A stretch of DNA of 64,000 nt, from positions 1-64,000 of the forward strand of contig NZ_JAMYXM010000002.1 of assembly GCF_024158145.1 (NCBI RefSeq). Reading direction: 5' to 3'. Shown here piece by piece: positions 1-13,357 of the stretch. The DNA comes from Notoacmeibacter sp. MSK16QG-6 (lineage in GTDB: Bacteria; Pseudomonadota; Alphaproteobacteria; Rhizobiales; Rhizobiaceae). Below the pieces are notes generated by a model. The model did not search any database. It worked only from the letters and a program-made list of their open reading frames with translations, and was not told the DNA's origin. The translations under genes were made by a program, and so were the position numbers. Position 1 is the first letter of the stretch; every line of letters starts with the position of its first letter.

Positions 1-83
1 GAACATAAGACCCAGCGCCCCTTCTGGCAAGACCCTAAAACCAGGTTCTCAACAAACCCGGCAGCCCCGCCAGCGATGGGCGG

Positions 84-8403: not shown

Positions 8404-10767
8404 CTAGGCGTCGGAGTCCGACGCGGTCTCCTCCGCGGGACTGTCGCCGCTATCCTTCTTCGGCTTCACCGGCGCATCGTCGGGAATGCTCTCCAGCGCC
8501 AGCCCCTTCTTGCCATCCGCCTTGTCCTCGACCGAGACCTTGACGGTGCCGCCGTGCTTGAGCTTCCCGAACAGCACTTCCTCGGCCAGCGGCTTCTTGA
8601 TGTGCTCCTGAATGACCCGGCCGAGTGGCCGCGCGCCCATCTTCTGGTCATAGCCCTTGTCGGCGAGCCATTCGATGGCATCCGGCGTCAGTTCGAAGGT
8701 GACGCCGCGCTCGGTCAGTTGCGCTTCCAACTGCATGACGAACTTTTCGACCACGCGATGGATTACCGGCACAGGCAACGGCCCAAACGGGATAATGGCG
8801 TCGAGACGGTTACGGAATTCCGGCGTGAAGAGGCGGTTGATCGCTTCTTCGTCCTCGCCTGTGCGGCGTGACGACCCGAAACCTATTGCCGCCTTGCTCA
8901 TCTCGGATGCACCGGCATTTGTCGTCATGATGAGAACGACATTGCGGAAATCGATCTTCTTGCCGTTGTGATCGGTAAGTGAGCCGTGATCCATGACCTG
9001 CAACAGAATGTTGAACAGGTCGGGGTGCGCCTTCTCGATCTCATCGAGCAACAACACGCAATGCGGATGCTGGTCCACGCCATCGGTCAGCAGACCGCCC
9101 TGGTCGAAGCCGACATAGCCGGGAGGTGCACCGATCAATCGGCTGATCGTGTGCCGCTCCATATATTCGCTCATGTCGAAGCGTAGCAGTTCGACGCCGA
9201 GCGACGATGCCAACTGCTTGGCCACTTCGGTCTTGCCGACGCCTGTTGGGCCGGAGAAGAGGTAAGAGCCGATTGGCTTGTCAGGCTCGCGCAATCCGGC
9301 GCGCGCCAGCTTGATCGAACTCGCCAGCGATTCGATCGCCAGATCCTGCCCGTAAACGACAGTCTTCAGCTCCTTCTCCAGATTTGCCAGAACGGCCTCG
9401 TCGTCAGCCGATACGGTCTTCGGCGGAATACGAGCCATCGTCGCAATTGTCGCTTCGATCTGATCGACATCGATCGTATCGACGCGATCATCCTTGGCGA
9501 GAAGCTTCTGCGCTGCGCCGGACTCATCGATCACATCGATCGCCTTGTCCGGTAGCTTCCGGTCGGTGATGTAGCGGCTGGAAAGCTCGACCGATGCACG
9601 AATGGCGTCATCGGTATAGGCGACCTTATGAAAGTCCTCGAAATAGGGCTTCAGACCGCGCATGATGGCTATGGCGTCATCAAGCGTCGGTTCGACCACA
9701 TCGATTTTCTGAAAGCGGCGAACTAGCGCGCGGTCCTTTTCGAAGAACTGACGATATTCCTTGTAGGTCGTCGAACCGATGCAGCGTATCGCGCCGGATG
9801 ACAGCGCCGGCTTCAGCAAATTGGATGCATCCATAGCTCCGCCGCTGGTCGCGCCAGCGCCGATGACGGTATGAATTTCGTCGATGAACAGAATAGCGCC
9901 TGGAAACTCTTCCAGTTCCTTGACGACCTGCTTGAGACGCTCCTCGAAATCACCCCGGTAGCGCGTACCGGCAAGCAGCGTTCCCATATCCAGCGAAAAC
10001 ACCGTGTCCTCGGCTAGCACCTCCGGCACATCGCCATCGACGATCCGTTTGGCAAGACCTTCCGCAATAGCCGTCTTACCGACCCCGGGATCGCCCACAT
10101 AGAGTGGGTTGTTCTTGGAGCGCCGACAGAGCACCTGAATGGTTCGGTCGATCTCCGCGGTCCGACCGATCAGCGGATCGATTTTTCCGTCTCTCGCCTT
10201 TTCATTGAGATTGACGCAGTAAGCTGTCAGCGCATCCTGGCCTTTCTTATTGGCGCTCTCATCATCGCCATCGGTCTCGGATGCATCCTCGTTTGCGCCT
10301 TTGATGACGCGATTGCCGGTCGCACCGGGTTTTTTGGCAATGCCATGGCTAATGAAGTTGACCGCGTCATAACGCGTCATCTGCTGTTCCTGCAGGAAGT
10401 AAGCGGCGTGGCTCTCACGTTCCGCAAAGATGGCGACCAGCACATTGGCCCCGGACACTTCGTCGCGGCCGGAAGACTGGACGTGAATCACCGCCCTTTG
10501 GATGACGCGTTGGAAACCGGTGGTCGGCTTTGAATCCTCGTCATAGCCGGTCACCAGATTGTCGAGCTCGTTATCGACATATTCGATTACGGTCTTGCGC
10601 AGATCGTCGATATCAACACCGCAGGCCCGCATAACGGCGGCGGCATCCTGATCGTCGATCAAAGCCAGAAGCAGATGTTCGAGCGTTGCATATTCGTGTT
10701 CGCGCTCATTGGCGTAAGTGAGCGCATCGTGAATCGCCTTTTCGAGGCTATCGGAGAATGCCGGCAT
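8404..10767 (-). CDS. clpA: ATP-dependent Clp protease ATP-binding subunit ClpA
   Basis: Hexameric AAA+ unfoldase that delivers substrates, including N-end-rule proteins brought by ClpS, to ClpP. The 787-residue sequence has the Clp N-domain (residues 1-140), then a variable linker. The first AAA+ module has Walker [14 protein letters not shown] near residue 225 and Walker [11 protein letters not shown]. The second has Walker [14 protein letters not shown] and Walker [12 protein letters not shown]. The IGF tripeptide used for docking to ClpP is present in AAIGFGSS. The C-terminus is an acidic, Ser/Asp-rich tail. It starts 8 bases after the clpS stop codon, a conserved pair. A bidirectional terminator lies beyond its stop. 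Confidence 0.97.
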
Positions 10768-10775
10768 CTAATTCC

Positions 10776-11150
10776 TCACTTTTTCTCCATCACGCATTGC
10801 AGCGGATGTTGGTTCTGATGAGCGAAATCCATCACCTGGGTGACCTTGGTTTCGGCCACCTCAAAGGTAAAGACGCCGCACTCGCCCACACCCTGTGTGT
10901 GGACGTGGAGCATCACGCGTGTCGCCATCTCCCGATCCATTTGAAAGAATCGCTCCAGGACATGAATGACGAACTCCATGGGAGTGTAGTCGTCGTTCAG
11001 GAGAAGCACGCGATACAGGCTGGGACGTTTTGTCTTGGGTTTGGTGCGTGTGATGACCGCCGTGCCACGGCCCGCACCATCATTGCCGTGATCGGAGTTG
11101 TCCTCTGGACCCAGATGAAGCGGACTGTCGATGAAAAGCCCTTGCGTCAT
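10776..11150 (-). CDS. clpS: ATP-dependent Clp protease adaptor ClpS
   Basis: Adaptor that binds proteins with bulky hydrophobic N-terminal residues and hands them to ClpA. The core shows [16 protein letters not shown] (the N-degron pocket), the [17 protein letters not shown] helix and the [12 protein letters not shown] strand. A start at ATG 11150 (MTQGLF) gives 124 residues with an unstructured N-terminal tail, the part that engages ClpA; a longer start at 11192 is possible. It is the first gene of the clpS-clpA operon. The 220 bases before it, up to the phasin gene, contain only the phasin terminator and presumably the clpS promoter. Confidence 0.95.
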
Positions 11151-11287
11151 GCCAGATGGTGATCCCTGTCGCTGTTTGCCATGGCAAATCAAATAGGTTC
11201 TCAGAAGACGCAGTTTAAGCCCCCGCTCTCACCATTCAAGCGTCCTAATCGTAAGATGCATCACATTTGCTTTGAGGATTCCGCACA

Positions 11288-11320
11288 AATAAAAGCACCC
11301 GCCAGTTTCCTGACGGGTGC
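11288..11320 (-). terminator. Intrinsic terminator of the phasin gene
   Basis: A hairpin with arms GCACCCG...CAG and CTG...CGGGTGC around a TTTC loop lies at 11295-11320, 50 bases beyond the phasin stop. On the minus strand it is followed by TTTTATTT; on the plus strand a shorter run of T follows, so weak bidirectional action is possible. Confidence 0.85.
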
Positions 11321-11370
11321 CCGATTTTTCATCGCCTGTTTTCAGTCAGGCAAGATATCGATAAAGCGGC

Positions 11371-11700
11371 TTAGCGAGCCTTTGCGACGGCCGTTTCGAC
11401 CGGCTTGACCATCTCTTTGGCGAGGTCCTGATAAAGCGCGCCGAACTTCTTGCTTTCAGCGACGAAGTTTTCATAGGCAGCCTTGGCATATTCGGTCTGC
11501 ACTTCGACAGCGCCTTCAACCGATTTCTGGCCCATGAGCTTCTCGAAGAAGGAAGCGTTCATTTCCATCGACTTCTTGGCGTAGTCTGCCGTTTCAGTAG
11601 CGATCGTCTGCATGGATTTGGAGACGGCCGATACCGTGGCGAGCTGGCTGTCCATGACTTCCTTGGAGGCGGCGTTGAGCTGTTCAATGTTCTGATACAT
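11371..11700 (-). CDS. Phasin family protein
   Basis: A small (109-residue), almost entirely helical protein of the phasin family; phasins coat polyhydroxyalkanoate granules or, in rhizobia, have related cytoplasmic roles. The sequence begins MYQNIEQLNAASKEVMDSQ and is dominated by Ala/Glu/Lys heptad-like helices with a TEYAKAAYENFVAESKKFG segment typical of phasin_2 proteins. The ATG at 11700 has a GAGGA ribosome-binding site 7 bases upstream; the longer frame starting at 11748 covers the promoter leader. Upstream lie two TGC-N3-GCA palindromes around a TTGACA box, suggesting control by the PHA-responsive repressor PhaR. No PHA synthase gene is in the window. Confidence 0.88.
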   Translation of the reverse strand: MYQNIEQLNAASKEVMDSQLATVSAVSKSMQTIATETADYAKKSMEMNASFFEKLMGQKSVEGAVEVQTEYAKAAYENFVAESKKFGALYQDLAKEMVKPVETAVAKAR

Positions 11701-11761
11701 GGTGTTCCTCATATTGTTCCGGCGTGATGAGACAATTCGCGTCCCCAATCACTTGCCAAAC

Positions 11762-11804
11762 AACTTATTGTGCACTGCACAAAATGTCAAGTGCGTCGCA
11801 CAAA
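11762..11804 (-). promoter_or_regulatory. Phasin promoter with two PhaR-type palindromes
   Basis: On the minus strand, from upstream to downstream, there is a GTGCGACGCAC palindrome (11791-11801), a consensus TTGACA -35 box (11785-11790), and a second palindrome TTGTGCAGTGCACAA (11768-11782) filling the spacer. A possible -10 lies near 11762-11768, although its exact position is ambiguous. The two TGC-N3-GCA cores are centred 21 bp apart, two helical turns. PhaR repressors of alphaproteobacteria are known to bind TGC-rich CTGC-N3/4-GCAG-type sites in phasin promoters, so PhaR is the likely ligand (inference). Confidence 0.65.
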
Positions 11805-11974
11805 TTTTACGTTGGGTCAGCGTCCCGATCTGGCACAAGCTTCTCATTTTGACGTTTTGCTTAAACGTTTTCTAAAGGACGCCTCGCCTATCAAAAAAGG
11901 ATGAGAAAGGGTGGCCGATCCCTGTCCCCATCGTGTCGGCCATCGTCCCTACGGTTTGATGTACAGGTGTTGTC

Positions 11975-13357
11975 TTGCGTTTTACGTCCCCCACCCGCCC
12001 CCGATTTCAACGACTGACGATCCTGTCTGGCACGCTCAGCGCCCTGCTCCTTGGTGGAACAGTAGCGGCCGGTGCGGCCGAATATGCGGGCATCGTCATG
12101 GATGCAAAAACAGGACAGACGCTCTATTCGCATCAGGCCGACTCGCTTCGCTATCCCGCGTCGTTGACGAAGATGATGACGCTTTACATCACCTTCGAGG
12201 CGATGAAAGCCGGCAAGATCGGTAAAAACACTCAAATTCCTATGAGCGCGCATTGCTCGCGCAGGCCGCCGACGAAAATTGGTATTCGTCCCGGCGGCTC
12301 AATCAGGGTCGAGCCGGCCATTTTGTCTCTTGTGACGAAAAGCGCCAACGATGTGTCCTGCGCGCTCGGCGAATATTTTGCCGGAAGCGAGGCTCGTTTC
12401 GGAAAGGTGATGACCGCAAAGGCTCGTGGGCTCGGAATGTCGAAGACCGTTTTCCGTAACCCTCACGGGCTGCCGGACAGCAAACAGGTCACGACGGCGA
12501 GAGACATGGCTCGGCTGGGCATCGCCTTGCGTGAGCATTTTCCAGAATACTACGACTACTTCGCCACCCGCAGCTTTTCATACGGCAAGGCGCGCTACGG
12601 CAATCATAACAAATTGCTCGGACACGTCCGCGGTGTGGACGGCATCAAGACCGGCTATACTCGAGCATCGGGCTTCAACCTCGTTTCCAGCGTCAAGGCA
12701 GACGGTCGCTCGATCGTCGCCGTGGTTATGGGCGGACGCACAGGCGCATCTCGCAATGCCCAGATGAAAAAACTGATCGCCGGCTATTTGTCCAAAGCGT
12801 CGCGTCAGGGATCGGGCAATCTTATAGCTCGCGCCGCGCCGGCAGGCGTTCAGTACGGCATGACCATCGCATCGATCGATCCGTCCGATCTGCCGCTGCC
12901 GATGCGCAACCCCGCCTTCCGTCAGCCAGAGGCGATCACCCGATCCAATGCCGTTGTCGCTGTCGCCGCAGCGCCGCAGCTCCCGCCTGCCCCCGTGTCA
13001 GCCTATGCCCCGGTGGCGCCGCGTCCACAGCAGATCGTCGCCTCGCATACACCGCCTGAGCCTGTCGCCAGGATCGATACGATCAAGACGTCGTCCACGG
13101 TGCCTGGCGCCGGACAGTGGGTCGTGCAGGTGGCTTCCGTCGGCAGCCCCCAACAGGCCAACAGTATGATCGCTTCCATGCAACAGAAAGCATCGTCTCT
13201 TCTCGCAAAGCGCCAGGGCTTCACCGTTCCTTTCGTCAAGGACGGCACCGAATATCATCGCGTCCGCTTCGCCGGATTTGATGGAAAGTCTGATGCATGG
13301 TCGGTCTGTAAGGGCCTCAAGCGTCAGAAGATCGCCTGCTACGCGGTGCAGCAGTAA
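11975..13357 (+). CDS. D-alanyl-D-alanine carboxypeptidase (S11) with C-terminal SPOR domain
   Basis: A penicillin-binding protein of the DacA/DacF type that trims the terminal D-Ala from peptidoglycan pentapeptides in the periplasm. A signal peptide spans residues 1-35. The three active-site motifs are seen: SLTK (Ser63, Lys66), SAN (Ser123) and KTG (Lys225). After the catalytic domain comes a Pro/Ala-rich linker (about 290-380) and a C-terminal SPOR domain (from GQWVVQVASVG to the end), which in other proteins binds denuded septal glycan. The start is a TTG at 11975; no in-frame ATG precedes the signal peptide. It is a single gene, divergent from the phasin. Confidence 0.93.
   Translation: MRFTSPTRPRFQRLTILSGTLSALLLGGTVAAGAAEYAGIVMDAKTGQTLYSHQADSLRYPASLTKMMTLYITFEAMKAGKIGKNTQIPMSAHCSRRPPTKIGIRPGGSIRVEPAILSLVTKSANDVSCALGEYFAGSEARFGKVMTAKARGLGMSKTVFRNPHGLPDSKQVTTARDMARLGIALREHFPEYYDYFATRSFSYGKARYGNHNKLLGHVRGVDGIKTGYTRASGFNLVSSVKADGRSIVAVVMGGRTGASRNAQMKKLIAGYLSKASRQGSGNLIARAAPAGVQYGMTIASIDPSDLPLPMRNPAFRQPEAITRSNAVVAVAAAPQLPPAPVSAYAPVAPRPQQIVASHTPPEPVARIDTIKTSSTVPGAGQWVVQVASVGSPQQANSMIASMQQKASSLLAKRQGFTVPFVKDGTEYHRVRFAGFDGKSDAWSVCKGLKRQKIACYAVQQ

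Follow-up and report, generated by a model that had tools for sequence, protein, structure and literature searches.

The original work on the PHA sensor-repressor PhaR is reportedly that on Paracoccus. The closest described counterparts of the phasin promoter discussed here are the PhaR (AniA) operators of Sinorhizobium meliloti, which consist of two YGCRNYGCR palindromes around the -35 box (PMC12542648). There, phaP1 and phaP2 each carry two palindromes flanking the -35 box, gel shifts were lost upon removal or mutation of the palindromes, and a single copy, whichever of the two, sufficed for PhaR to bind in gel shifts. The same paper reports that no PhaR binding was detected at the phbC promoter, that the PhaP2 protein also depends on a factor besides PhaR, and that mmgR is a PhaR-controlled small RNA. 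For phaP1 of Bradyrhizobium diazoefficiens, footprints on either side of the -35 box and a release of PhaR by PHB have been described (PMC6201568); mutation of either box weakened binding (PMC6201568, PMC10888616), and in Bradyrhizobium both boxes are described as important, with PhaR probably acting as a tetramer (PMC10888616). In these relatives, PhaR binding, its loss with mutated sites, the release by PHB and the repression have been shown (PMC12542648, PMC6201568, PMC10888616).

In R. eutropha, the sites are palindromic around a single central base, and two sites act cooperatively, with less PhaR being needed where there is more than one site (PMC12849132). The degenerate single-centre palindromes of phaP1 and phaP3 resemble those described below, and two of the phaP1 sites lie beside the -35 and -10 boxes, but the system differs in that each gene has three sites, of which one falls within the coding sequence, and in the activation of phaP3 by PhaR (PMC12849132). 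Paired PhaR sites that flank a -35 box are therefore already known from S. meliloti and Bradyrhizobium, and the window, by which we mean the whole 64-kb stretch of Notoacmeibacter DNA that was analysed, almost certainly holds a further example and not a new switch. A possible rule on the spacing of such pairs is one small testable extension.

Two palindromes at the phasin promoter

The initial annotation had noticed, upstream of a phasin gene, a near-perfect 15-bp palindrome and an 11-bp palindrome, centred 21 bp apart on either side of a TTGACA box (Table 1). This description holds, and the 15-bp palindrome is in fact perfect (7-1-7), as is the 11-bp palindrome (4-3-4, with a three-base centre); their centres lie at 11775 and 11796, which confirms the distance of 21 bp. 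In the minus-strand direction, the distal palindrome is followed by TTGACA, TT, the proximal palindrome and TAAGTT, and the 17-nt spacer between the -35 and -10 boxes (11784-11768) includes all 15 bp of the proximal palindrome, as had been claimed. With a predicted -35 box flanked by sites, one of which occupies the spacer, the arrangement supports the steric geometry that had been proposed. The -10-like hexamer agrees with the consensus in only three of six letters, and as a sigma-70 scan of positions 11300-12000 demanded at least 4/6 per hexamer and 9/12 in total, no promoter was reported by it.

Table 1. Annotated and predicted features around the phasin promoter (positions in the window)
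Feature	Position	Strand	Remarks
clpA-like Clp ATPase gene	8404..10767	-	domains Clp_N, AAA_2, ClpB_D2-small
clpS	10776..11192	-	3' neighbour of the phasin gene, same strand
phasin gene (PF09361)	11371..11712	-	profile match; the ATG at 11700, closely preceded by AGGA, seems a better start than 11712
-10-like TAAGTT	11762..11767	-	17 nt 3' of the -35 box; weak by consensus
proximal PhaR-type operator (predicted), TTGTGCACTGCACAA	11768..11782	.	core TGC 11771-11773, GCA 11777-11779; in the -35/-10 spacer
-35 box TTGACA of the phasin promoter (predicted)	11785..11790	-	sequence and conservation among relatives
distal PhaR-type operator (predicted)	11789..11803	.	perfect palindrome GTGCGTCGCAC at 11791-11801; touches the -35 box
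D-alanyl-D-alanine carboxypeptidase gene with SPOR domain	11975..13357	+	divergent from the phasin gene

The phasin matches the Phasin_2 profile PF09361 with 74.5 bits (cut-off 24.9); the NCBIfam phasin models TIGR01985 (52.2 of 99.7 bits) and TIGR01841 (24.1 of 30.2 bits) were missed, and the gene is therefore filed as a Phasin_2 phasin only. By its size of 109-113 residues, the product may be PhaP2-like, as the S. meliloti phaP2 phasin has 114 residues, to which it is likened by length alone.

The assignment of the TGC-N3-GCA cores to the PhaR site type is supported by a phaR gene, by paired sites elsewhere in the genome and by matches to published sites in relatives. The distal 12-mer TGCGTCGCACAA (plus strand) is identical to one of the two footprinted sites which, like here, flank the -35 box of B. 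diazoefficiens phaP1 (PMC6201568), and the 21-base stretch that includes the proximal palindrome agrees with the S. meliloti phaP1 site TTATTGTGCACTGCACAAATT (PMC12542648) at 20 positions, one position being different. Both published consensuses fit as well: the proximal site has no mismatch to TGCRNYGCASMA and none to the S. meliloti 21-mer consensus, and the distal site has none to TGCRNYGCASMA on the plus strand (two on the minus strand) and two to the S. meliloti 21-mer. To the R. eutropha 17-mer, the proximal site has one and the distal site two mismatches, and three were allowed in the source (PMC12849132). The fit to the consensus, the phaR gene, the location at a predicted phasin promoter and the sites at other PHA genes are what would be expected of a PhaR operator. 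The idea that GTGC-N3-GCAC extends the motif did not stand, since TGCRNYGCASMA, WNWD2NYGCRNYGCRNH2WNW and YTKNTGCRNYGCANMAR already allow this variant, and the extension is thus already in print.

The distances between the two sites are not the same in all of these systems. From the coordinates in the S. meliloti paper, the start-to-start distance is 18 bp for phaP1 and 28 bp for phaP2, as compared to 21 bp here. The B. diazoefficiens 12-mers are 17 nt apart, which corresponds to 29 bp from start to start, whereas in the window the distance is 21 bp and the distal site touches the -35 box.

Predicted PhaR sites in the genome and in the family

A search for phaR in the genome gave one match, with 139 bits to TIGR01848 (cut-off 109.45); the product contains the domains PF07879 and PF05233, the gene adjoins a thiolase gene, and by sequence no solved structure matched this PhaR at E 0.01. 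The genome further has one PhaC_N match and one TIGR01849 PhaZ match, and the promoter of its second phasin gene carries two cores, 19 bp apart.

In 151 genomes of the family, the phasin query matched 106, the best match per genome being taken as the presumed ortholog and 10 weaker second phasin matches being left out. At least one TGCN3GCA core is present within 300 bp upstream in all 106 promoters, with one core in 31, two in 64 and three or more in 11 of them, so that 75 have at least two. In 100 dinucleotide shuffles, a mean of 13.8 genomes (largest 24) had at least one core and a mean of 0.95 (largest 4) at least two, and the backwards-read control gave 7 of the 106. Of the 151 genomes, 134 have a phaR match, including 105 of the 106 with a phasin match; in the remaining one (G031) it was not found, and a congener (G130) has it. 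PhaR control of phasins, so far known from a few model rhizobia, would thereby reach a marine genus, and the numbers suggest that nearly all members of the family with this phasin share it. Notoacmeibacter marinus has a 96% identical phasin, and its promoter carries this pair with the 21-bp distance unchanged. The exact pair is found in the window genome (G000) and in G048, one of two congeners that were searched, which appears to be the same genome as N. marinus and thus is not independent evidence; the other, G141, has one exact core only. One phasin match of the family set (G023:C9 221185-221511) lies within a 1038-codon open frame.

That the palindromes are chance inverted repeats is hardly credible. 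The window contains two GTGCN3GCAC, with a shuffle mean of 1.43 and 38 of 100 shuffles reaching two, which is not above expectation and would agree with chance, and since window counts are no higher than in shuffles, a lone core means nothing. The conservation across the family, however, exceeds the shuffles, and the cores are paired at both phasin genes. In the whole genome, 15 pairs of TGCN3GCA with a gap of 6-18 bp were counted versus 2 in the backwards-read control, and two of these 15 pairs are the promoters of the two Phasin_2 genes. The pairing, not the single core, is thus the meaningful signal. Another regulator that shares the TGC-N3-GCA core, with phaR being present by coincidence, deserves a little more consideration, but is still very unlikely. 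The core is short and frequent on its own, with 31 bare TGCN3GCA in the window and, at up to three mismatches, 928 sites like TTGTGCN3GCACAA in the genome versus 865 in the backwards control; the sole exact match to this longer palindrome in the 3.54-Mb genome is the phasin promoter site. A coincidental phaR is difficult to reconcile with its presence in nearly every genome whose phasin promoter carries the sites, and both 12-mers match published PhaR sites. A scan also flags the 15-bp palindrome followed by TAAGTTGTTT as an intrinsic terminator on the minus strand, one of two terminator-like sites in 11300-12000, where shuffles average 0.7. The palindrome is placed between a -35 and a -10 box and does not follow a gene, the upstream neighbour being divergent; the stem has six pairs, and the core is kept in 100 of 106 relatives together with a -35-like TTG before it, which makes this interpretation highly implausible.

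We are therefore confident that the two palindromes are PhaR operators of the phasin gene, and that PhaR represses this gene until PHB granules relieve the repression, as judged from sequence and from the analogy to the relatives. While no polyhydroxybutyrate is stored, both sites would be occupied by PhaR dimers, probably linked into a tetramer; the sites face almost the same side of the helix and enclose the -35 box, and RNA polymerase would be kept off. Once PHB granules form, they would soak up PhaR and thereby empty the sites, and the phasin would then be made and could coat the granules. Binding and repression by the PhaR of this organism, the bridging by a tetramer, and the transcription start, which the -10 box would place near 11755, are what we infer in this scheme. 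The pair is not obligatory, as 31 of the 106 promoters have one exact core and a single copy sufficed in S. meliloti.

Spacing of paired sites

In the family set, 76 neighbouring cores are at most 60 bp apart, and of these distances 37 are 19-23 bp and 38 are 28-32 bp, with one at 17 bp and none at 24-27 bp. These favoured values correspond roughly to two and to three turns of the helix. In 100 of the 106 promoters, a TTG(A/C/T) starts 9-13 bases before a core, which thereby fills the promoter spacer, and in 82 of these 100 the sequence at this place is TTGAC plus any base; five promoters had two such anchored candidates, from which one was picked by rule. Relative to the anchored core, an exact partner is found about three turns upstream (-32..-28) in 37, about two turns downstream (+19..+22) in 31, and about two turns upstream (-23..-21) in 4 of the 100 promoters. 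Altogether, 71 have an exact partner in a favoured range, one of them in both -32..-28 and +19..+22, and the shared ancestry of the genera weakens any probability that one might attach to these counts; Rayleigh statistics, which assume independent genera, were therefore set aside as evidence. No exact partner occurs at -27..-24, -20..-12, 12..18 or 23..27 in the 100 anchored promoters; outlying exact cores are one at +28..+33 and single ones at -52, +39 and +41. If one mismatch is allowed, the favoured ranges, three in number, contain a partner in 93 of the 100 promoters, and the four gaps hold 2, 1, 7 and 1 partners, with other 5-bp windows averaging 2.8. The compact form, in which the partner precedes the anchored core by two turns, is thus limited to four anchored promoters, and its 21-bp version is seen in this genus in both cases (G000 and G048), the distance being 23 bp in G003 and G009. 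At PhaP1-type loci (best 30 from 113 genomes), a pair is 18-20 bp apart in 28 of 30. Five loci that were flagged as truncated were rechecked, and three of them (L187, L145 and L152) were corrected.

Part of the gap in the spacings is accounted for by sites keeping clear of the -35 and -10 boxes; by our reading, a site would have room at -27..-24 and at +23..+27 despite these boxes. We tentatively propose, while leaning slightly towards doubt, a helical rule for this type of phasin promoter in the family. According to it, one site nearly always lies in the spacer and the partner two turns downstream, three turns upstream or, as in this genus, two turns upstream with the -35 box in between. The two would have to face almost the same side of the DNA, since a single PhaR tetramer would need to span them, and the partner may have switched sides in evolution with its phase being kept. 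Our confidence is lowered by the single copy that sufficed for binding in S. meliloti, which argues against an obligatory bridge. If true, the rule would turn the “two boxes” into a testable model of a PhaR tetramer holding the promoter, and it would be useful in tuning bioplastic production strains.

A statement of such a rule was not found in the open-access literature searched or in the excerpts considered of the four papers cited here; the terms “cooperativ” and “spacing” are absent from the text of PMC12542648, as are “helix” and “spacing” from the available text of PMC10888616. In a class-wide test, PF09361 was found in 171 of 289 genomes, and one high-scoring locus each was taken from 90 of them; two (L286 and L287) were dropped because of contig ends, and the 88 remaining loci may be a mixture of both phasin types. 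At least one core is present within 600 bp upstream of the domain in 84 of the 88, as compared to 6 of 88 in the backwards control and an average of 13.0 in base shuffles. A pair 12-45 bp apart occurs in only 15 of the 88, with spacings scattered from 16 to 41 bp, and the spacing rule is therefore not shown outside the family.

Sites at other PHA genes and a three-core stretch

The expectation of similar sites at other PHA genes was borne out in part: the second phasin gene has an exact pair and phaZ a pair with one degenerate core, but no exact core precedes phaC or phaR. Upstream of phaZ (L199 1405-1432), one exact and one 5-of-6 core are 19 bp apart, the same core spacing as at the second phasin gene. 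The 300 bp upstream of phaC contain two degenerate 5-of-6 matches and no exact core, which agrees with S. meliloti, in which PhaR binding to the phbC promoter was looked for and not detected. Upstream of phaR, three GCACAA half-sites lie at -107, -87 and -61; they belong to three direct GCACAAT repeats (L001 1370-1422), 20 and 26 bp apart, which are half-sites of the PhaR palindrome and stand where full palindromes are absent. In the family, an exact core is present, after correction, in 18 of 30 phaR promoters, taken as the best 30 from 134 genomes, and autoregulatory sites thus vary.

Elsewhere in the genome, a stretch with three TGCN3GCA cores, two of them 17 bp apart, was observed (G000:C7 1145155-1145236; L045 1445-1526). 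It lies where a dxs-like gene and a small gene on the opposite strand converge, between their 3' ends (names from translations). Of the congeners, G141 (L291) has two cores by this small gene, and G048 (L292) has no core there. Rfam gave one match there, which was below threshold. By analogy to mmgR of S. meliloti, a small RNA that is missing from the annotation and controlled by PhaR might be transcribed from a promoter in this stretch.
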